The notes: a model not told the origin generated them from the letters alone. A DNA stretch of 36,198 bases from Candidatus Saccharimonadota bacterium (GCA_017432305.1 JAFRJK010000007.1:1-36198), one strand, 5' to 3'; counted from the first letter of the stretch, positions 4,053-35,880 are shown. Numbers and translations: made by a program.

Positions 4053-5102
4053 ATGTCAAAATTTGATGAACTCCTCGAGAAAGAGGGTGAATCTATTAAA
4101 CAAGCTGTCGCTGGTGATACTGTCGATGGTGTTGTACTTTCGGTTAAGAAACACGAAATCTTAATCGATCTCGGAGCGAAAGGTGTTGGGTTAGTCCCAC
4201 GTCGTGAAGCTTCTTATGCAAGAAATCTTGAAGTTGGCCAAGAGGTTACAGCTTCGGTGATTGATGCGGAAATGGAAGACGGATATGTACTTCTATCGCT
4301 CAGAAAAGCTGTAAAAGATAAGGGCTGGGATGAAATCCAAGCTAAACTCGACGCAGCAGAAATTGTCGAAGTCACGCCTTGTGATGCTAACAGAGGCGGT
4401 TTACTCGTTGAATACGAAGGAATCCGTGGGTTCTTACCAGTTTCACAACTTTCGGCAGAGCACTATCCTAGAGTTGGTTCGGCTGATAAAGATGAAATCT
4501 TACAAAGACTTAACTCGCTTGTTGGGAAGAATATTAAAGTTCGCATTCTTGACGCATCGAAGAAAGATAACAAGCTTATCTTCTCTGAGAAAGAAGCAGT
4601 TAAAGACGGACTCGCAGCAAGATTTGCTGAACTTAACGTTGGCGATACCGTTAAAGGTATGGTGACTGGCGTAGTCGATTTTGGTGTATTCGTTAATGTT
4701 GACGGAATTGAAGGACTTGTTCATATTTCTGAGATTTCTTGGGAACGTGTTAACAACCCAGCTGATTACGTTAAAGTTGGCGACGAAATCGAAGCAAAAA
4801 TCATCGCAATTGATAAAGAACGCCTTAGCCTTTCGATGAAACAACTTACCGAAGACCCATGGCTTTCGGAAGTTGAAAAACTAAAGAAGGGTTCAAAAGT
4901 TGAAGGAACCGTTACTCGTATTACTCCGTTTGGAGCATTCGTCCAGATTTCTCCAGCAGTCGAAGCACTTGTTCACGTTTCGGAGCTTGGCGAAGGAAAT
5001 GATGTTGATCCAGAAAAAGTCTTTACTTTAAATGAAAGAAAAGATTTTAAAGTTCTAGACATCGATAAAGAAGGTCGCAAGATTTCTCTTACAATTGCTT
5101 AA
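4053..5102 (+). CDS. rpsA: 30S ribosomal protein S1 (four S1 domains)
   Basis: This 349-aa protein has four OB-fold S1 repeats. The first starts near residue 20 (VDGVVLSVKKHEILIDLG), the second near 107 (GGLLVEYEGIRGFLPVSQLS), the third near 200 (VKGMVTGVVDFGVFVNV), and the fourth near 282 (VEGTVTRITPFGAFVQIS). S1 helps 30S subunits bind and unfold structured mRNA. E. coli S1 has six domains; a four-domain form is common elsewhere. In this genome many mRNAs seem leaderless, which makes the role of S1 at leadered genes of interest. Codon use is the smooth pattern of a highly expressed gene. A strong terminator follows directly. Confidence 0.93.
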   Translation: MSKFDELLEKEGESIKQAVAGDTVDGVVLSVKKHEILIDLGAKGVGLVPRREASYARNLEVGQEVTASVIDAEMEDGYVLLSLRKAVKDKGWDEIQAKLDAAEIVEVTPCDANRGGLLVEYEGIRGFLPVSQLSAEHYPRVGSADKDEILQRLNSLVGKNIKVRILDASKKDNKLIFSEKEAVKDGLAARFAELNVGDTVKGMVTGVVDFGVFVNVDGIEGLVHISEISWERVNNPADYVKVGDEIEAKIIAIDKERLSLSMKQLTEDPWLSEVEKLKKGSKVEGTVTRITPFGAFVQISPAVEALVHVSELGEGNDVDPEKVFTLNERKDFKVLDIDKEGRKISLTIA

Positions 5103-11042: not shown

Positions 11043-11433
11043 TTTACATCCAAGAAATAGAGGAGTGATTAATGGAGTGAGACCAATAAAATTGGTGAAT
11101 TCTGGCTGTGGGGATGAACTATTTGTTTATTTAAAATTTAAAGATAGCAAAGTCATAAATGGGAAATTTAAGGGGAATGGTTGCGCGATTTCAAAGGCCT
11201 CGGCGGATCTTTTTATTTCGTCAGTAAAGGGGAAAGACTTGAGAATGATTGGGGAGATAAAAGAGATTTTTGAAAAGATGATTGTCGGGGAGGCGACAAA
11301 AAAACAGGTTGAGAGAATTGGGGAATTGGCAGCTTTAGAATCGATTTCGAGGATGCCGGCACGAGCAAAATGCGCGAAGTTAGCATGGGAGAGTTTAGAC
11401 AAGATTACGGTCGAAGACTTGAAAAGCGTTTAA
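11014..11433 (+). CDS. sufU: Sulfur-transfer protein SufU (IscU-like)
   Basis: This 139-aa IscU-fold protein has the three cysteines and the aspartate that bind zinc or a cluster: C32 and D34 in SGCGDE, C57 in GNGCAISKAS, and C120 in ARAKCAKLAW. The loop between the second and third cysteine is longer than in IscU, which marks it as SufU, the sulfur acceptor from SufS. AGAGGAAAA before ATG is the ribosome-binding site. It is the last gene of the suf operon. Confidence 0.93.
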   Translation: MYDEILIDHNLHPRNRGVINGVRPIKLVNSGCGDELFVYLKFKDSKVINGKFKGNGCAISKASADLFISSVKGKDLRMIGEIKEIFEKMIVGEATKKQVERIGELAALESISRMPARAKCAKLAWESLDKITVEDLKSV

Positions 11434-11447
11434 GTTTAAACTATAAT
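11419..11447 (+). promoter_or_regulatory. Promoter of the DUF5663-like gene
   Basis: TTGAAA (11419-11424), a 17-bp spacer, TATAAT (11442-11447), within the end of sufU. ATG follows six bases after the -10 box. Confidence 0.7.
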
Positions 11448-11453
11448 TTAGGT

Positions 11454-11873
11454 ATGATAAAAATCGATAATGATTTTCTGAATGAAGTGGGCCTCTCCGA
11501 GATGGCGGAAGAGAGGAAAGCTGATTTTATTGCCCAAACTCAAGCGGAACTTGAGACTCGTGTCGGGGAAAAGATGAGTAGTGGGATGTCGGTTGAACAA
11601 CTACGCGAATTTGATGGTATTATGCATAATGATAGAAATACGATGATTCGAGTTTTGTCGCAAATCGGGGATTACCGTGAGGATGAACTCTACCAAAAAT
11701 TATTAAAACGTCACGAAGTTTCGGAAGGAAATCTTGAGATTTTAGGCGAATATCTATCTGTAAAGTGGGTACAACTCAATCGTCCAGATTATGCAACAGT
11801 AACAAAAAGTGTTGTTGAAGAATTGAAGAACGAAATCATCAACGCACGCGAAGAAATTTTAGCAGCAAATTAA
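11454..11873 (+). CDS. DUF5663-like acidic helical protein
   Basis: This 139-aa protein is predicted helical and acidic. It contains FLNEVGLSEMAEERKADFIAQ followed by ETRVGEKMSSGMSVEQLREFDGIM. I think this matches the DUF5663-type proteins common in Patescibacteria, but that is recall and not a search. Function is unknown. ATG at 11454 is six bases after TATAAT; the reading from 11370 would lie inside sufU. It has a second, more distant relative in style at 28969-29358. Confidence 0.75.
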   Translation: MIKIDNDFLNEVGLSEMAEERKADFIAQTQAELETRVGEKMSSGMSVEQLREFDGIMHNDRNTMIRVLSQIGDYREDELYQKLLKRHEVSEGNLEILGEYLSVKWVQLNRPDYATVTKSVVEELKNEIINAREEILAAN

Positions 11874-22476: not shown

Positions 22477-23673
22477 ATGCCTGAAATTAAACCTACAGAG
22501 GTGGAAAGTACAGCAAGCATTAAAGTTGTGGGCGTTGGTGGAGCCGGTGGCTCTGCAATTAACCGGATGAAGGAAGTCGGTCTTACTGGCGTTGAGTTCG
22601 TCGCGATTAACACCGATGCACAAGCTTTGCATCATTCTGATGCAGATACAAAAGTTCATATCGGCCAAGGTCTTGGTGCTGGTGGCGATCCTGAGAAAGG
22701 TCGCGAGGCAGCAGAAGAAAGCCGTGAGAATATCGGTAAAGCACTTGATGGAGCTGATATGGTCTTCATTACACTCGGTGCTGGTGGTGGTACTGGTTCT
22801 GGTGCTGGTCCGATTGTTGCGAAAGAGGCAAGAGATCGCGATATCTTAACTGTTGGTGTCGTGACAAAACCATTTACTTTCGAAGGTGCACAAAGAAAAT
22901 ACAATGCTGATGTCGCCGTAAATGAGCTTTCGGGTGAAGTTGATGCTTTAATTACTATTCCGAATGATCGCTTACTCCAAACGATTGATCCGAGAACTCC
23001 GCTTCTTGAAACTTTCAAGATTGCAGATGATGTTCTCCGTCAAGGTGTCCAGGGTATCTCGGAACTTATTACTGAGCACGCTTTAATTAACCTCGACTTT
23101 GCCGATGTTAAGGCAATTATGAAGAATGCTGGTTCGGCACTTATGGGTATTGGTAGAGCAAGTGGTGAGAACCGTGCAAAAGAAGCGGCAAGACAAGCTA
23201 TTGAATCCCCACTTATTGAAGTTAAAATCGACGGTGCTAGAGGAGTCCTCTTTTCGGTTGCTGGTGGCTACGATATGTCGATGAGCGAAATCCAAGAAGC
23301 GGCGGAAGAAATTACTGGTGCAGTTTCGCCAGATGCAAATATCATCTTTGGTGCTTCGGTTAGACCTGAACTTAACGATGAAATTGTTATTACAGTTGTT
23401 GCAACTGGGTTTGATTCTGATTATTATCGCCAAAAACGCGCTGAAGAAGCAATTGCAGCAGAACGTGAAGCTGTGGCGGCTGAGACGAGCGCAACTTTTG
23501 GTGGAACAATCGTAAATAACGAGCCAAAAGAATCGAGTGAATCTAACGAAAAAGAAGTTGCTCCGGCTAAAGATAACAAATGGGGAAATGTTGATAAACC
23601 AGTAGAAGAAGACGAGGAAGGCGATCTCGACATCCCGCCATCACTACGCGCCCGATTACGTGGCAAAAAATAA
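22477..23673 (+). CDS. ftsZ: Cell division protein FtsZ
   Basis: This 398-aa tubulin-like GTPase forms the division ring. The nucleotide-binding GVGGAGGSAINRM (19-31) and tubulin signature GAGGGTGSGAGP (101-112) are intact, as is the T7 synergy region NLDFADVKAIM. A disordered acidic linker leads to the C-terminal peptide DIPPSLRARLRGKK, a variant of DIPxFLRxQ that binds FtsA; Phe is replaced by Ser, with Arg-rich residues at the end. Ribosome-binding site GTGAGGAAAAAAG. The downstream NrdR-like gene begins 27 bp after the stop. Confidence 0.96.
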   Translation: MPEIKPTEVESTASIKVVGVGGAGGSAINRMKEVGLTGVEFVAINTDAQALHHSDADTKVHIGQGLGAGGDPEKGREAAEESRENIGKALDGADMVFITLGAGGGTGSGAGPIVAKEARDRDILTVGVVTKPFTFEGAQRKYNADVAVNELSGEVDALITIPNDRLLQTIDPRTPLLETFKIADDVLRQGVQGISELITEHALINLDFADVKAIMKNAGSALMGIGRASGENRAKEAARQAIESPLIEVKIDGARGVLFSVAGGYDMSMSEIQEAAEEITGAVSPDANIIFGASVRPELNDEIVITVVATGFDSDYYRQKRAEEAIAAEREAVAAETSATFGGTIVNNEPKESSESNEKEVAPAKDNKWGNVDKPVEEDEEGDLDIPPSLRARLRGKK

Positions 23674-28691: not shown

Positions 28692-28808
28692 ATGCCTTTT
28701 GAATTTTTCAAAAATGAGGCAGACTATTCGTCAAAACAAGAGATTTCTCCCGAGGCTGAGTTAAAAATTAAAGAACGCTTAGGGCATCTTGTGACGATAA
28801 TCAGCTAA
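28692..28808 (+). CDS. Small 38-aa protein
   Basis: This ORF of 38 codons begins MPFEFFKNEADYSSKQE and ends KERLGHLVTIIS, with a balanced charged composition and a short hydrophobic end. AGGAG lies eight bases before ATG, and a 17-bp terminator hairpin begins 12 bases after the stop. Position, ribosome-binding site and terminator support expression as the only ORF of the first promoter-module unit. No family is recognised. It could be a peptide product or a regulatory ORF. Confidence 0.55.
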   Translation: MPFEFFKNEADYSSKQEISPEAELKIKERLGHLVTIIS

Positions 28809-28820
28809 AAAATGACCTTT

Positions 28821-28859
28821 AGTTAAAAGGAACCGAACGCGATTCGGTTCTTTTTAACT
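28821..28859 (+). terminator. Long terminator after the 38-aa ORF
   Basis: AGTTAAAAGGAACCGAA (28821-28837) with TTCGGTTCTTTTTAACT (28843-28859): 17 pairs with one G-U, loop CGCGA. It separates the first unit from the second promoter copy. Confidence 0.88.
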
Positions 28860-28968: not shown

Positions 28969-29358
28969 ATGACAGACGATAAAAGTAAACTTAATGAACT
29001 CCTCGAGAAGGTGAAAAATCTTCCTGAGGGTGAGGAACTTCCAGAGGATATTCTCGCAGATTTATCCCAGGAAGAAATTCTAGCGATTTACATCGAGAAA
29101 ATGATTCTCGATAAAGGTGTTGAGCCAACAGATGAACTTCGAAGCCAGCTTCTTGAAGAAATCGAAGATGACATCACAAAGGCACTCGTTTCGGCGATGC
29201 CTAGTGAACTCGTTGATAAGTTAAATAACGATATCGACAATGGCGCTTCGGACGATGCGCTCGAAGCGGCAATTAATGAATCGGGAATCGATGTGGAGAA
29301 GATTACCGATGATACTATGAATGCCTTTCGTGATAAATATCTTGGGGAGGAAAAATAA
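28969..29358 (+). CDS. Acidic helical protein, possibly DUF5663-related
   Basis: This 129-aa, strongly acidic, all-helical protein reads LSQEEILAIYIEKMILDKGV, then TDELRSQLLEEIEDDITKAL, then ASDDALEAAINESGIDVEK. The size and heptad-like leucines recall the DUF5663-like protein at 11454-11873, but the match is loose. No signal peptide or membrane span. AGAAAGG precedes ATG. Its stop overlaps the start of the 1120-aa gene by one base (TAATG), so the two are coupled and may act together; a chaperone-like or regulatory partner role is a guess. Confidence 0.72.
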   Translation: MTDDKSKLNELLEKVKNLPEGEELPEDILADLSQEEILAIYIEKMILDKGVEPTDELRSQLLEEIEDDITKALVSAMPSELVDKLNNDIDNGASDDALEAAINESGIDVEKITDDTMNAFRDKYLGEEK

Positions 29359-32300
29359 TGGATAAGGGAAATTTTGAGGCAGGACAGCCAATCGACATCA
29401 ACGAAAATGACGATAAAAAACAAGAACTAATCGAGCGAACTCAAAAAAATATCGATGACGCTCAAGAATTTATTAAGGAACATCCAGAAATCGAACCGGA
29501 TCTTGCGGCGATGGTAAAGAAACTTACCGAGCTCGAAGATTCAATTGAAAACGGGAACTTCGACGAAGCGGAGATGAAGAAAAACGAAAACTTCCTCGAA
29601 AAACTCGAGATGTTTAATAAGGAAGTTAAACGTTCGGTAGCGTTTAACGAGGCACAAGAGCGAAACGAAAGAGCTCGCGGAGAGTGGAACCGCCTAGAGA
29701 ATGATGCGAAGAGCGGTAAGAAGGTTTTGGATGAAGACTTTGAAAAGGCGGAGGCAGAAATTCACGAGAGTGAAGATGCTATGCGCGCTAATGACGAGAG
29801 AGTTAAGAGTGAGATAGGAAAAACTGAGGATGTGGCTACGGCTGAAATAGATAAAGCTGCAACTGAAGGCAAGCTTGGAGAACTCAGAGCAAAAAATGCC
29901 GAAGCGATTGCTGAATATAATAAAATAGAAGCATTAGTTAATGCTGGTCAAGCAAAAGAAGAAGATCTTGTTGCGGCTGAAGAAAGAATTCGCGAAACTG
30001 AGAGAGAAATCGCGAAAGCACAATTCGAACTTAACGATTTAGCGGCAAAAGCTGAAGACAAACCAGAAGGTGAAAATACTGAAGGCGAGCTAGAGGTTGA
30101 GAACGCGGAGAGCATAGAAGAATCCGGGGAAAAGAAAGAAAGATTCAGCTTCTTTGATGGATACGAAGATAAAGATGCTAAAGATGCGGAAAAAGACGAC
30201 AAGCAAAAGACAGTTATTAAGAAAATTACGAAAGTTGTCGTTCCGACCGAAGGCCGAACACAAGAAGAAATTCAAGCAACCATCAACGCTTATAAAGCAC
30301 GTAGGGCTGGTAAAAAAGTCGAAGGCGGAGATAGCGAAAGTGATGGCGAAATGCTCGACGAGGAAAGCGCGTTTAATGGATATTTTGAAGAATCTTGGGA
30401 AGATAGAGATCTTCGCCGTTCGTTTGGTATACCTAATCTTGATGCGATGAAAGAGCAGATGGAAAAGGGTGAAATTTCCGAAGAAGAATATAATAAGGCA
30501 TACGAAGACGGGCGTGAGAAAATGCGTGATCTTCTTCGTAAAACTTGGGATAGAAACAAGGAAATCAACGCCGAAAGAAGAGATAAAGACGAAGAGTTCG
30601 AAACATATTTCGAAGAACAATGGAAAAACCAAGAAGCTCGCGATCAATATCGTGTCGATAAGCACCTAGAAGAATTAAAGGCAAAACTAGAAAGAGGCGA
30701 AATTAGCCGTGGCGAGTATGAAAAAGCAATCGTGGAAGAGAAAGAGAATTTCCGTAAGTATATTCGCGATCGTTGGGAAGGCCAAAAAGCGCTTGAAGAA
30801 AGAGACACAAAGAAGACTGAACCGATAAAGAAGGAAGAAAGATTTAGTTTCTTTGATGGATATGAGAAAGAAGAAACTGAAAAGAGAATGTCGCTTTCGG
30901 AAAAGATTAAAGGATTCTTCGGACGATATAATCGTGTTAGAAAAGGTGCGGAAAAAGGAATTAGTGGATGGAGAAGGGCAGTGCTCACGGGCGTTGCGGG
31001 CTCGATTCTCGGAGTATTCCTCGCTGGTGCAGCTACGACGAGTGGCGTCTTCGCAAACACGAATAATAAACAGGATTTCAACATACCGAATCAGCCGACA
31101 GTAGAAACAACCGCGACTGGAGATGTTGCGGAAGATTTAGTTGCAAGTGCGGATAGTGAAATTAGACTTGGTGTCGACTTAAACGAAACTTATGGCGTTC
31201 AAGTTGAAACTGAAGCTGAGGACGAAAATGAAATCCCAGACGTCGTCAAAGGTAAAACTTACGGCGAAGAAGTCGAGTTTAATATTGGTGCTAAAGAATG
31301 GTCTGGCGAAAGTGATTACTTCTCGGAGGCAAAGCACGGTAAACACGATTTAACTGCTCCGGTTTATGATATTGATAACCGTGGGAATTATGAAAAATCG
31401 GAACTCGCAAGACAAGGTGTCGAAGGACTTTCAGAAAGATTAGACGATCCAATTCTTCAAGCACAATTTGCGTCGCTTGGTGGAACAGATATTCAAATCG
31501 ACGGTGGTGGGGCTTATGGAATCTCAAACCTTGGCCAAATGAATTATCTCGAGCTTATGGCGCAATGTGATGATAACTATCGTGAGTCACTTGCAAAATA
31601 CTCGAAGAGCTTAATGTATGAACTTGTCGATAAATATGATGTACAAGTTGATACAGTAAAGAGAGGCGAAGTTCACCACTCACTTTATGCGATGAATATT
31701 GCAGATGATGGCGAAATGCCAAGGCTTAAATACTTTGTTGACGATGAAGTCACTTCGAAAGAAGACTACGAGGTGCTTAAATTCATGGACGGCGATGAAA
31801 GTGTGCTCGACCAAAACGAAATTGGTGGTTATAAATATAACTTCCTTAAAGCGGTTGGGCGAATTCCAGAAAATGCGACGGATGACGAAGCAATCACTAT
31901 CATGAAGAAAGTGAAAATTCTCGGTATCTCGCTTAAATGTGGCCAGATTATTTGGGAAGAAGGCGGAACAACTCACGTGGTTGTTAAACAGAAACAAAAT
32001 ACTTCGGGTGTTGAAGGAACTGGTACAGAGAATGAAGATTCTGGTACGGAAAATGAAGGTACTGGTCAAGAAGACACTGGTACTGAAAACGAAGGAACCG
32101 GAACTGAAGACACTGGTTCGGAAATCGGAACTGGTACAGAAAACGAAGGTACTGGTACGGAGAATGAGGGTACGGGTACTGAGAATGAAGGTACTGGTAC
32201 GGAGAATGAGGGTACGGGTACTGAAAACGAAGGAACCGGAACTGAGGATGAAGGCACTGGCGTAGAAGGAACTGGTGAAGAAACTACTGGTACCGAAAAC

Positions 32301-32720
32301 GAAAATACTGGTTCGGAAAATGAAACTGGTGATGAATACGATGGCAAGACTCCTGTTCTTCCAGGTAATCCTGACGATGGATGGAATGTAAATCCGAACG
32401 ATACCCCAGAAGAAGAAGGTCCAAAGAGTGAAGCGGGCGGTGAAAACGGAAATGTTGGTGATAACACACCTGGGTCGAGTAGTGAAAATATCTCAATCCC
32501 GGTAACTCCAGCAAATCCAGAAAATCCACCTGCACCAACCGACGACCACTATGATGATGACAATTCCGGCTGGAAAGGTTCAGGTCAAAGTGAAGAATCT
32601 GGTACTCAGGACGTTCCAGAAACGCCACCTGAGAACAAGGCTAACCCAGGCTCGGCGGGTGAAAATACTGACGAGGAGCAGATTAAAAAAGACCACGAAG
32701 ATATAATGAATAGATTCTAA
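29358..32720 (+). CDS. Large single-span surface protein with repeat-rich ectodomain
   Basis: This 1120-aa protein has no N-terminal signal. Residues 1-537 are highly charged and predicted coiled coil. They carry two copies of RFSFFDGYE (262-270 and 495-503) and two tandem 75-residue repeats (339-413, 414-488) with shared YFEExW and KGEIS/RGEIS-xxEY blocks. One hydrophobic segment (541-566) after basic GWRR suggests N-inside topology. The ectodomain starts with a folded region (about 640-885, including GGTDIQIDGGGAYGISN). Then come Thr/Gly/Glu/Asn 7-residue repeats (about 889-990) and a Pro/Asn/Ser-rich tail. No family recognised; a role in the envelope or host contact is inferred. Confidence 0.8.
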   Translation: MDKGNFEAGQPIDINENDDKKQELIERTQKNIDDAQEFIKEHPEIEPDLAAMVKKLTELEDSIENGNFDEAEMKKNENFLEKLEMFNKEVKRSVAFNEAQERNERARGEWNRLENDAKSGKKVLDEDFEKAEAEIHESEDAMRANDERVKSEIGKTEDVATAEIDKAATEGKLGELRAKNAEAIAEYNKIEALVNAGQAKEEDLVAAEERIRETEREIAKAQFELNDLAAKAEDKPEGENTEGELEVENAESIEESGEKKERFSFFDGYEDKDAKDAEKDDKQKTVIKKITKVVVPTEGRTQEEIQATINAYKARRAGKKVEGGDSESDGEMLDEESAFNGYFEESWEDRDLRRSFGIPNLDAMKEQMEKGEISEEEYNKAYEDGREKMRDLLRKTWDRNKEINAERRDKDEEFETYFEEQWKNQEARDQYRVDKHLEELKAKLERGEISRGEYEKAIVEEKENFRKYIRDRWEGQKALEERDTKKTEPIKKEERFSFFDGYEKEETEKRMSLSEKIKGFFGRYNRVRKGAEKGISGWRRAVLTGVAGSILGVFLAGAATTSGVFANTNNKQDFNIPNQPTVETTATGDVAEDLVASADSEIRLGVDLNETYGVQVETEAEDENEIPDVVKGKTYGEEVEFNIGAKEWSGESDYFSEAKHGKHDLTAPVYDIDNRGNYEKSELARQGVEGLSERLDDPILQAQFASLGGTDIQIDGGGAYGISNLGQMNYLELMAQCDDNYRESLAKYSKSLMYELVDKYDVQVDTVKRGEVHHSLYAMNIADDGEMPRLKYFVDDEVTSKEDYEVLKFMDGDESVLDQNEIGGYKYNFLKAVGRIPENATDDEAITIMKKVKILGISLKCGQIIWEEGGTTHVVVKQKQNTSGVEGTGTENEDSGTENEGTGQEDTGTENEGTGTEDTGSEIGTGTENEGTGTENEGTGTENEGTGTENEGTGTENEGTGTEDEGTGVEGTGEETTGTENENTGSENETGDEYDGKTPVLPGNPDDGWNVNPNDTPEEEGPKSEAGGENGNVGDNTPGSSSENISIPVTPANPENPPAPTDDHYDDDNSGWKGSGQSEESGTQDVPETPPENKANPGSAGENTDEEQIKKDHEDIMNRF
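32025..32340 (+). repeat. Minisatellite encoding GTGTENE repeats
   Basis: Tandem 21-bp units encode TGTENEG. The best copies form a 42-bp super-unit at 32148-32189 repeated at 32190-32231 with two differences. Near-identity at the DNA level suggests recent expansion, and length changes in multiples of 21 would keep the frame. Confidence 0.85.
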
Positions 32721-32787
32721 ACAAACACAAAAACGCGCAGGGGGAAATAAACACGATCATTTAAAAGGGAAGAAAGGAGCCCTAAAA

Positions 32788-34077
32788 ATGAGAACAAAAA
32801 CAAAAACCAAAACTTGGGAAGGAATACGTCGCTCGGCACGACATTTCATCCCAATGGCGGTACTCTCACTTGGCGCAGTAGCTGGAGTTGCTGCTTCTGC
32901 CAATGTAAGTGCCACCTCAACGGCGTGGGGTCCGGAACGTCCAGAATTTACCTGGGCTGAACCGGCAGAATACGTCACGTTCAACTCCATTATCGATAAC
33001 CCAAAAATCGGTAATGAGAGAAACTTCGTTCGTATCAGAAAAGCTGGTACGACCGATACATTAGTAGATAAAGTCGAGCTAGAAGTGGGCCAAGAGTACG
33101 AAGTTGCGATTTGGTTCCACAATAACGCAAAATCAAAACTAAACAAGTCCGAATATGGCGGAGTCGGGATTGCCGATAACGTGCGTCTTCGTATCGAACA
33201 GCCTGAGAAGGTAAACGCTGGTACGAGCGCAGTTATTAAAGGTATCATCTCCTCGACTAACGCAAATCCGAACGAAGTTTGGGATACAGCTTATGCTTAT
33301 TCCAAAACTACAGTTCTAACTCGCTACGTGCCAAACTCTGCGACTATTCATAGCCTTGGTAATATCGATGGCGAAATCCTAGATTCGAGCGCTTTGTTTG
33401 GTAAAGATGGTGCTAAACTTGGATATTGGAACGACATGTGGGGTTACGTCCCTGGTTGTAACGAATATTCTGGTTATGTTACTTATCGCTTCAAAGTCGA
33501 TCAACCAAACTTTAAGATTTCGAAAACTGTTTCGAAAGAAAAAGAACAAAACTATGTCGAAAAAATCACTGTTAAACCAGGCGATGTTCTCGACTTTAAG
33601 ATTGACTATGAAAACACTGGTACGATGAACCAACTTTCAATTATCGCTTATGATAATATGCCAAATGGTCTTTCATATGTTAATGGTACTTCGTTCTTTA
33701 AAGCAAACTTTAACACCGAAGGTAACTTCGTTTCAGATAAACTCTTTGACGGTGGTATCAACCTCGGCGACTTTAAACCTGGCGACAACATGTCTCTAAC
33801 TTATAAAGTCGAAGTTTCTGAAGACAAAGAGATTTTCCCATGTGGCGACACGAAAGTTTATAACAACGCATCAATCGCAACTGCGAACGGTACGGGTTAT
33901 GACAAAGTTGAGATTACAGTTCATCGCGATTGTGAACCAGACCAACCGAAAGAACTTCCAAAAACTGGTCCAACCGAACTTGTAGTTTCACTCATCGTTG
34001 TAGCTGGCATCGGAATTGGTGTTTCATACTACATCAAATCGAGAAAACAACTTAAAAATCTCACAAGCTCTAAATAA
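32788..34077 (+). CDS. Secreted LPKTG-anchored surface protein with DUF11-like domain
   Basis: This 429-aa protein has a signal peptide (basic RRSARH, hydrophobic MAVLSLGAVAGVAASA at about 23-38). A first extracellular region (about 50-225) contains the Asn/Thr-rich TTVLTRYVPNSATI. A DUF11-like beta domain (about 240-375) follows: ISKTVSKEK, VKPGDVLDFKIDYENTGT and LTYKVEV. The C-terminus is a textbook sorting signal: LPKTG (390-394), hydrophobic ELVVSLIVVAGIGIGVSYYI, basic KSRKQLK. A sortase would link it to peptidoglycan; none is in the window. AAAGGAGCC is the ribosome-binding site. Probably cotranscribed with the 1120-aa gene. Confidence 0.88.
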   Translation: MRTKTKTKTWEGIRRSARHFIPMAVLSLGAVAGVAASANVSATSTAWGPERPEFTWAEPAEYVTFNSIIDNPKIGNERNFVRIRKAGTTDTLVDKVELEVGQEYEVAIWFHNNAKSKLNKSEYGGVGIADNVRLRIEQPEKVNAGTSAVIKGIISSTNANPNEVWDTAYAYSKTTVLTRYVPNSATIHSLGNIDGEILDSSALFGKDGAKLGYWNDMWGYVPGCNEYSGYVTYRFKVDQPNFKISKTVSKEKEQNYVEKITVKPGDVLDFKIDYENTGTMNQLSIIAYDNMPNGLSYVNGTSFFKANFNTEGNFVSDKLFDGGINLGDFKPGDNMSLTYKVEVSEDKEIFPCGDTKVYNNASIATANGTGYDKVEITVHRDCEPDQPKELPKTGPTELVVSLIVVAGIGIGVSYYIKSRKQLKNLTSSK

Positions 34078-34213: not shown

Positions 34214-35509
34214 ATGATGATGGGTGGCAGAACTAGTAGAAGACTGACGATTGTTGAGGGGAGAGAACTGAACCAGAATATGGCGAGGGAGCTTGTTGAG
34301 GCGTCGGAAAGAGCTGGATTTAAGACTGAACTAATTAAAGTTTTGGATGAAACAAAGATTGTTGACGGGAGATTAGAGGACTTATTTCCAGATATGATTT
34401 TATGGAGAAGTCCGATAAATTATTCGAGCGGAACGGCGGTTGAGAGAGCTTTATATTGGATAAATAAGAATCGAAAAATTACGATAAATACGAAAGTTGC
34501 GGGCGGAAGATCGTTTAATTCAAATAAATATTTCCAACATGAGATGTTTATGGACGATCCAGTAGTTAGAAAACATACCTTACCTTGTTTCCCAGCGTTT
34601 AATAAGGAATTTATTAAAAAAAGGTTGATTGGGGAGGGGCGAATTTCTTATCCGTTTGTCTTAAAACCAGATATGGGAACGCGTGGAATTGGAATAAAAT
34701 TGATTAGAAATGAACAGGAGCTAGACGATTTTAACGAGAATTTAGCAGCGTTTTCGGTCGAGAAATTTGTGAAGTCGACGTATGATTGGAGAGTGTTCAC
34801 ACTCGGAGGAATTGCGCTTGGTAATATGAAGAAGCTTGGTAACGAGGATGACCCGGCGGATTTTATCGCAAAAAGCGCAGGGAAGAAACGTTGGACCGAG
34901 GATGACGAAGGGTTAATTGAGGAGATGTACGAGATTGCGGTACATGCGGCGGCAGCTTGTGGGCTTGAATACGCGGGAGTGGATTTAATTCGGGATGACG
35001 AAACAGGAGAGTTTTATGTACTTGAGACGAACGTGGCCGGGGGGTGGCAGAACGGATTTTTTGAATCGACAGGAGTGAACGTTCCAGATAAAATTATGGA
35101 GTGGTTTTCTGATCGGGCGGAATTTTTTTCGGAGAGGAGAGTTAACGTTTCGGTTGAGAATTATGTTTTAAAAAGATTACCGATGCTTTCGAGAAAAATA
35201 AGAAGGGCATTTTCGGATATTACTGAATTTAAGTGGGCAGTAAATCGTTCGAGAGACCTTTGTAATGCGGATTTAGTAATTAGAGAGATGCCACTTATAA
35301 GAAAATTAGAGAGTGCATATCTTCTCGTCCAAGATGAGAACCTAAAGGGAACAGATTTAGCGAGAATTGAGGCGTTAATCGATTCAATAGAGAAATATGA
35401 TATTTCGGGATATGGGAACTTTGTCGGGAGAGATTCAGGTTCGCTCGAGGACTCAGCAATAGAAACGGCGTTTTATCTAGCGATTTGTAAGAAGTTAAAC
35501 CGAAGTTGA
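34214..35509 (+). CDS. RimK-like ATP-grasp ligase
   Basis: This 431-aa protein has an ATP-grasp core: YPFVLKPDMGTRGIGIKLI (ATP-binding lysine and glycine loop), EKFVKSTYDWRVFTLGG, and CGLEYAGVDLIRDDETGEFYVLETNVAGGWQ, with the metal-binding acidic and Asn residues in VLETN. A pre-ATP-grasp N-terminal domain precedes it, and a helical C-terminal extension of about 120 residues follows. RimK relatives add amino acids, often glutamate, to proteins or small molecules. The substrate is unknown. It starts with three ATGs, the first nine bases after TGG-TATAAT (34199-34204), with no ribosome-binding site. Confidence 0.82.
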   Translation: MMMGGRTSRRLTIVEGRELNQNMARELVEASERAGFKTELIKVLDETKIVDGRLEDLFPDMILWRSPINYSSGTAVERALYWINKNRKITINTKVAGGRSFNSNKYFQHEMFMDDPVVRKHTLPCFPAFNKEFIKKRLIGEGRISYPFVLKPDMGTRGIGIKLIRNEQELDDFNENLAAFSVEKFVKSTYDWRVFTLGGIALGNMKKLGNEDDPADFIAKSAGKKRWTEDDEGLIEEMYEIAVHAAAACGLEYAGVDLIRDDETGEFYVLETNVAGGWQNGFFESTGVNVPDKIMEWFSDRAEFFSERRVNVSVENYVLKRLPMLSRKIRRAFSDITEFKWAVNRSRDLCNADLVIREMPLIRKLESAYLLVQDENLKGTDLARIEALIDSIEKYDISGYGNFVGRDSGSLEDSAIETAFYLAICKKLNRS

Positions 35510-35571: not shown

Positions 35572-35880
35572 ATGAAGAAAGCAGTTGTGCTCATCGGCGG
35601 GAAACAATATGTCGCCTGTGAGAAAGAGACCCTCCGTGTGGACCTCCTCCCGGCAGGAACAAAGAAGCTCGAAACTGGTGCTTTGCTCGTGATTGATGGT
35701 GAGAAAATCTCCGTCGGAAATCCTGAAGTAAAAGGCGTGAAAGTTTCGGCTGAAGTCGTCGAAGAAAAGGTTGCTGGCGACAAAGTCCGCGTAATTCGAT
35801 ACCATTCGAAAAAGCGCGTCCATAAAGAAACTGGACATCGCCAGAAATATAGTGTAATAAAAATTACCTCAATTGCATAA
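35572..35880 (+). CDS. rplU: 50S ribosomal protein L21
   Basis: This 102-aa protein matches bL21: the start AVVLIGGKQYVACEKETLRVD, then KVRVIRYHSKKRVHKETGHRQKYSVIKI with the conserved GHRQ near the end, which contacts 23S rRNA. TGG-TAAAAT (35536-35541) is the -10, and AAAGGA (35561-35566) five bases before ATG is the ribosome-binding site, so this gene is leadered. rpmA, which usually follows rplU, is not next to it. Confidence 0.93.
   Translation: MKKAVVLIGGKQYVACEKETLRVDLLPAGTKKLETGALLVIDGEKISVGNPEVKGVKVSAEVVEEKVAGDKVRVIRYHSKKRVHKETGHRQKYSVIKITSIA

Follow-up and report, generated by a model that had tools for sequence, protein, structure and literature searches.

The stretch of DNA analysed here (hereafter the window) is a 36,198-nt contig, one of the 8 contigs that make up the 0.75-Mb genome of a Candidatus Saccharimonadota bacterium. 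Saccharibacteria are tiny bacteria, and those in culture live on other bacteria. Three genes follow one another on the plus strand of the window. The first (28969-29358), hereafter the helper gene, encodes an acidic, all-helical protein of 129 residues of the H-type branch of the DUF5663 family; the second (29358-32720) encodes a protein of 1120 residues, the giant, whose start codon overlaps the helper stop codon in the sequence TAATG, with GGGGAGG just upstream of the overlap; and the third (32788-34077) encodes a wall protein of 429 residues with a signal-like N-terminus, a WGP...TFNS domain, a DUF11 domain and an LPKTGP sorting signal. The three ORFs and the TAATG coupling of helper to giant are as the initial annotation of this DNA had placed them, and to this annotation our analysis added the family of the helper, a 38-residue ORF upstream (28692-28808) and a gene for a RimK-like ATP-grasp ligase downstream (34214-35509, plus strand). 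The ligase is an accessory found in some genomes (strong homologues in 9/80 same-genus genomes, the window's included); it adjoins the surface genes and could modify one of their products. A rplU-like gene (35572-35880, plus strand; 102 aa) forms the conserved downstream flank; it lies outside the system and was used to fetch loci.

The 38-residue ORF, MPFEFFKNEADYSSKQEISPEAELKIKERLGHLVTIIS (plus strand, preceded by AGGAG), is a fourth gene, located between ileS and the helper gene and conserved in four relatives. Its predicted promoter, P1 (28274-28302, plus strand), reads TTGACA-17-TACAAT with a TG before the -10 element, matches the consensus at 11 of 12 positions and falls in an aligned block conserved in the four relatives. 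An A-rich leader of ~390 nt separates P1 from the ORF, and searches of Rfam around this leader returned nothing above gathering scores. Past the ORF, a hairpin followed by a T-run (28830-28850, plus strand) is predicted to act as its terminator; the inverted repeat was also flagged in a second analysis, listed there on the minus strand, and alignment of the four relatives indicates that the stem differs between them, with pairing still possible and the T-run kept. A second promoter-like element, P2 (28881-28909, plus strand; TTGACA-17-TAAACT, 10 of 12 consensus positions), aligns in the four relatives with TTGACA and with TAAACT, TAAAAT or TAGAAT. Since P2 lies just 5' of the helper gene and is aligned in four relatives, it supports the earlier proposal of a single promoter for the three larger genes. 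Longer variants of the small ORF (40-100 aa) occur 5' of helpers at many loci. Matches to a small-ORF profile, copies outside the seed among them, lie mostly upstream of helper genes, an enrichment that is partly built in because the profile was seeded from upstream ORFs.

Eighty loci were retrieved through relatives of the window's rplU, independently of the helper. All come from uncultured Candidatus Saccharibacteria, and the sources that are given are mostly ruminant guts. Usually ileS comes first and is followed, in this order, by the small ORF, the helper, the giant and the wall protein, in some cases by the RimK-like ligase, and then by rplU and ParA/ParB-like genes. In rplU-anchored Saccharibacteria loci, the next gene encodes 400 aa or more and adjoins or overlaps the helper gene in 44 of 45 cases, versus 38 of 264 for control genes of similar size; these surveys relied on longest-ORF calling, which may have misjudged start positions and a few short genes. 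The helper was present in 33 of the 39 loci with ileS in view (31 by ORF calling plus 2 from a second search), and an LPKTG-type wall-protein homologue in 34, so the grouping of the three genes put forward in the initial annotation is reproduced well beyond the window. Six of the 39 loci kept the large gene and the wall-protein homologue with no detectable helper; the helper is thus not always needed. Across 80 same-genus genomes, a set that overlaps the rplU locus set, helper homologues were found in 50 (two copies in several) and wall-protein homologues in 76, including 51/51 of good quality. The window giant used as a query matched in only 4 of 60 genomes, its own included; taken alone, this result would have pointed to a lack of conservation, and it took the helper and flanking genes to show otherwise. 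Identity between the window and four relatives falls from 86-88% for ileS to 77-82% for the wall protein and 55-60% for the helper; within the giant, the C-terminal tail is at 40-55%, the ectodomain core at 31-45% and residues 16-505 at only 15-22%. The wall protein is the best conserved protein of the cluster and the giant the fastest-changing, its cytoplasmic half being the least conserved.

Asp and Glu account for 29% of the helper's 129 residues, and its AlphaFold2 model is all-helical (mean pLDDT 86), in agreement with the helical character first assigned to it. Structure and profile searches yielded no distinctive relative among solved folds, the best hit (Z 5.7) being tied with unrelated ones. 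The window helper itself has no match to the PF18908 (DUF5663) model at E<=0.01; 20 of 38 aligned helper-family members do match at that threshold (best 4.1e-7), and profile-profile comparison aligned the helper family collinearly with infB-adjacent DUF5663 proteins over 90 columns at 94.3% probability. Judged from this profile homology, the helper belongs to a divergent branch related to DUF5663 rather than being a plain member, and it differs from that family both in lacking a direct model match and in that its branch adjoins giant proteins. The view that only DUF11 and LPKTG could be recognised at this locus has therefore to be given up for the helper, the family to which it is related being itself without known function. 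Of 240 genomes sampled across the phylum, 63 have a match to the DUF5663 model, whereas 14 control genomes have none. A second DUF5663 protein is encoded in the window (11370-11873, plus strand; 167 aa, with residues 37-93 matching above the Pfam cut-off), of a type found elsewhere beside infB-like and convergent fmt-like genes. At two loci (L049 7854-8918 and L045 4443-5567) the gene directly 5' of the giant encodes a fusion of the helper domain with a longer Ala/Pro-rich protein. The genus also has a second helper locus (L051-L053, L056, L061, L063, L064), in which a ~355-aa gene precedes, in this order, a helper of ~100 aa, a partner of 500-1300 aa and a protein of ~573 aa; the ~355-aa gene begins like the S1-domain protein at 4053-5102 of the window, where the S1 gene is followed by a DNA_alkylation gene in place of the helper set.

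Beyond the genus, further genera and families of the order also have H-type helpers with coupled partners of 700-1700 aa, in many cases next to infB-like and fmt-like genes. The sister DUF5663 protein lies beside infB-like genes in many Saccharibacteria families, and the helper might on this account be a general translation-linked protein whose place beside giants is incidental; given the coupling frequency relative to controls and the recurrence of the helper-giant pair at different genomic sites, we regard this as very unlikely. In other CPR classes, DUF5663 genes often neighbour large proteins, on either side, and across the CPR the C-termini of these large partners are variable. Glycosyltransferase domains, GT2-like and GT9-like, were found close to the C-termini of two of the giant partners in these classes (L165 2340-6071, L184 1997-6946), so the role of the helper is not specific to surface proteins. 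Small acidic helical proteins whose genes immediately precede that of a large partner and are coupled to it are known from the chaperone-partner pairs of secretion systems, and the small, acidic, coupled, upstream helper gene, together with the variable C-termini and glycosyltransferase domains of some CPR partners, could be accommodated if the helper were a secretion chaperone, the giant an exported effector-like protein and the surface genes mere neighbours. This is an unlikely account of a giant that has a membrane span, a stalk and a tail and no enzymatic domain, of a helper without a chaperone fold match and of a wall protein that is constantly adjacent.

Residues 1-505 of the giant (29358-30872, plus strand) are charged and predicted to be cytoplasmic; they are hypervariable except for the first ~15, undergo large length changes between relatives and contain two copies of ERFSFFDGYE. 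Residues 506-559 (30873-31034, plus strand) comprise a basic juxtamembrane segment and the only hydrophobic span (~541-559), residues 600-890 (31155-32027, plus strand) form the ectodomain core with two Cys (737 and 861), an acidic stalk of EGTGTENEGTG type is encoded by 21-nt tandem repeats (32012-32325, plus strand), and residues 1005-1120 (32370-32717, plus strand) constitute the conserved C-terminal tail. Hydropathy and charge, with the basic flank on the N side of the span, support the N-in/C-out, single-crossing topology that had been anticipated. The 540-residue cytoplasmic coiled coil of the initial annotation fared less well. Heptad periodicity in the N-terminal half is patchy, with shuffle p<0.05 in 4 of 18 overlapping 56-residue windows, and interrupted by Gly-, Pro- and acid-rich breaks, and a continuous coiled coil over residues 1-540 was rejected by this simple periodicity test. 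The accompanying idea that the giant relays a signal or force from wall to cytoplasm draws on the large domains that probably lie on both sides of the membrane; it is left unsupported because no part of the giant is less conserved than its cytoplasmic half, at 15-22% identity between close relatives, and neither a continuous heptad pattern nor, in a domain-model search, any signalling domain match was obtained. We consider such a relay highly improbable. A role at a cell pole, as a scaffold or tether between the wall and the machinery of cell division or chromosome segregation, would suit the charged and helix-rich nature of the cytoplasmic part beside the membrane, the FtsA match upstream, the FtsZ-like start at 22477 and the ParA/ParB-like genes that follow rplU in many loci. 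Housekeeping neighbours, however, are weak evidence in such small genomes, the helper-giant pair occupies a different site in other families, beside infB-like and fmt-like genes, and the cytoplasmic part is hardly conserved, which makes this explanation quite unlikely.

Besides the window's own giant, only four distinct relatives could be recognised by sequence across the ectodomain. Profile comparison related this ectodomain distantly to those that larger giants have at this locus elsewhere (probability 93 in one direction and 80 in the other); a solved-fold search with a model of mean pLDDT only 66 gave no match, and profile searches gave nothing of use. In two genomes with tandem giants, the C-terminal ~150 residues are common to these giants, which hints at a shared partner or assembly signal. 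Two candidate motifs were considered. An N-terminal W[DE]xL motif, considered as a helper-binding signal, was not enriched (6/43 giants vs 38/416 other proteins), and a Trp within the first 60 residues was found in 11/43 giants vs 245/416 other proteins. LxxC lipobox-like motifs at the end of the internal span were enriched, in 8/55 giants vs 25/886 controls (p 4e-4; L078, L089, L091, L099, L104, L108, L138); the span of the window giant has no lipobox. Lsp (Peptidase_A8) had no match in the window's genome and none over the cut-off in the 80 same-genus genomes, and canonical lipoprotein processing of the giants was rejected on this ground.

The wall protein matches DUF11 (PF01345) at residues 257-365 (E 1e-6; 29.5 bits vs a Pfam cut-off of 24.6), as do 18/18 aligned wall proteins at E<=0.01. 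N-terminal of DUF11, the 18 have in common a WGP...TFNS...RNFVR domain that has no Pfam match. The C-terminus consists of an LPxTG-like motif (LPKTG), a hydrophobic span and a basic tail, upholding the first description of this protein as DUF11-like and LPKTG-bearing, and the TGPxE sorting signal ahead of the span is kept in all 18. The NCBIfam anchor model scored 12.2 bits, below its cut-off of 15.9. Three sortase genes were found in the source genome; with both signal and sortases present, we infer that a sortase joins the protein to the wall. Comparison with the PDB returned pilin matches (E 0.01-0.05), too weak for pilin likeness to be accepted as evidence. A wall-protein paralogue of 32% identity is encoded elsewhere in the genome (G000:C7:129591-130667), and second wall-protein copies are common in the genus.

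Taken together, this conserved gene cluster probably encodes a cell-surface apparatus. We propose that it is an operon for surface display in Saccharibacteria. The DUF5663-type helper would act in the cytosol as chaperone or adaptor and bind the cytoplasmic part of the giant during synthesis; the giant, predicted from hydropathy and charge to cross the membrane once with its N-terminus inside, would project ectodomain, acidic repeat stalk and conserved tail through the envelope; and the WGP-DUF11 protein, putatively sortase-joined, would stand next to it as the conserved component of the wall. Being likeliest to touch other cells would fall to the giant, which changes fast, for instance the host bacterium, and host contact by the locus is plausible. 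In favour of surface display are the coupling statistics, the TAATG overlap and the same order in many genomes; the span with its basic N flank, the invariant TGPxE signal, the three sortases and the wall protein in all good-quality genomes; and the divergence contrast between the proteins along with the tail common to tandem giants. Counting against it, the fastest-changing part is cytoplasmic, which host-driven surface change alone does not predict, some loci have no detectable helper, some partners of DUF5663 genes carry glycosyltransferase domains, and the ectodomain has no recognisable fold. On balance the reading as a whole, with its chaperone or adaptor helper, bitopic fast-evolving giant and sortase-anchored wall protein, is our tentative preference, and we put it slightly short of an even chance. 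A broader version, in which H-type DUF5663 proteins throughout the CPR are dedicated partners that assist giant envelope proteins or effector-like proteins during translation, and in which the ileS-rplU locus is a host-contact apparatus made of the bitopic giant, the sortase-anchored wall protein and the small upstream-encoded protein, is doubtful at present.

The locus is a defined gene set across a Saccharibacteria genus, its wall protein occurring in all sampled genomes of good quality, and it gives a DUF that is widespread in the CPR a recurring genetic setting. Little is known of how ultrasmall episymbionts recognise and bind their hosts (PMC12206443, a study of their type IV pili). Saccharibacteria are genetically manipulable (PMC10633639), which would open each gene to deletion, provided that cultured strains have the locus. 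In the open-licence papers searched, we found no mention of DUF5663 and no description of this set of genes, of the pairing of helper with giant or of the small ORF. Each part belongs to a known kind (a DUF, DUF11, sortase signals); their combination, the pairing and the small ORF appear new. The helper-giant layout is like that of secretion-system chaperone pairs, from which the helper differs in having no distinctive fold match and no secretion system identified beside the locus. The Giant1-5 proteins of Apilactobacillus kunkeei, very large bacterial surface proteins (PMC12863079), are comparable by description only, as large surface-type proteins in the small genome of a symbiont; the window giant differs in its size of ~1100 aa, its predicted N-in cytoplasmic half and its coupled DUF5663-type helper. 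The wall protein resembles the sortase-anchored DUF11 surface proteins of Gram-positive bacteria in its DUF11 domain, signal-like N-terminus and LPxTG-like signal with C-terminal span, and is set apart from them by the conserved WGP...TFNS domain and by its constant pairing with a giant.
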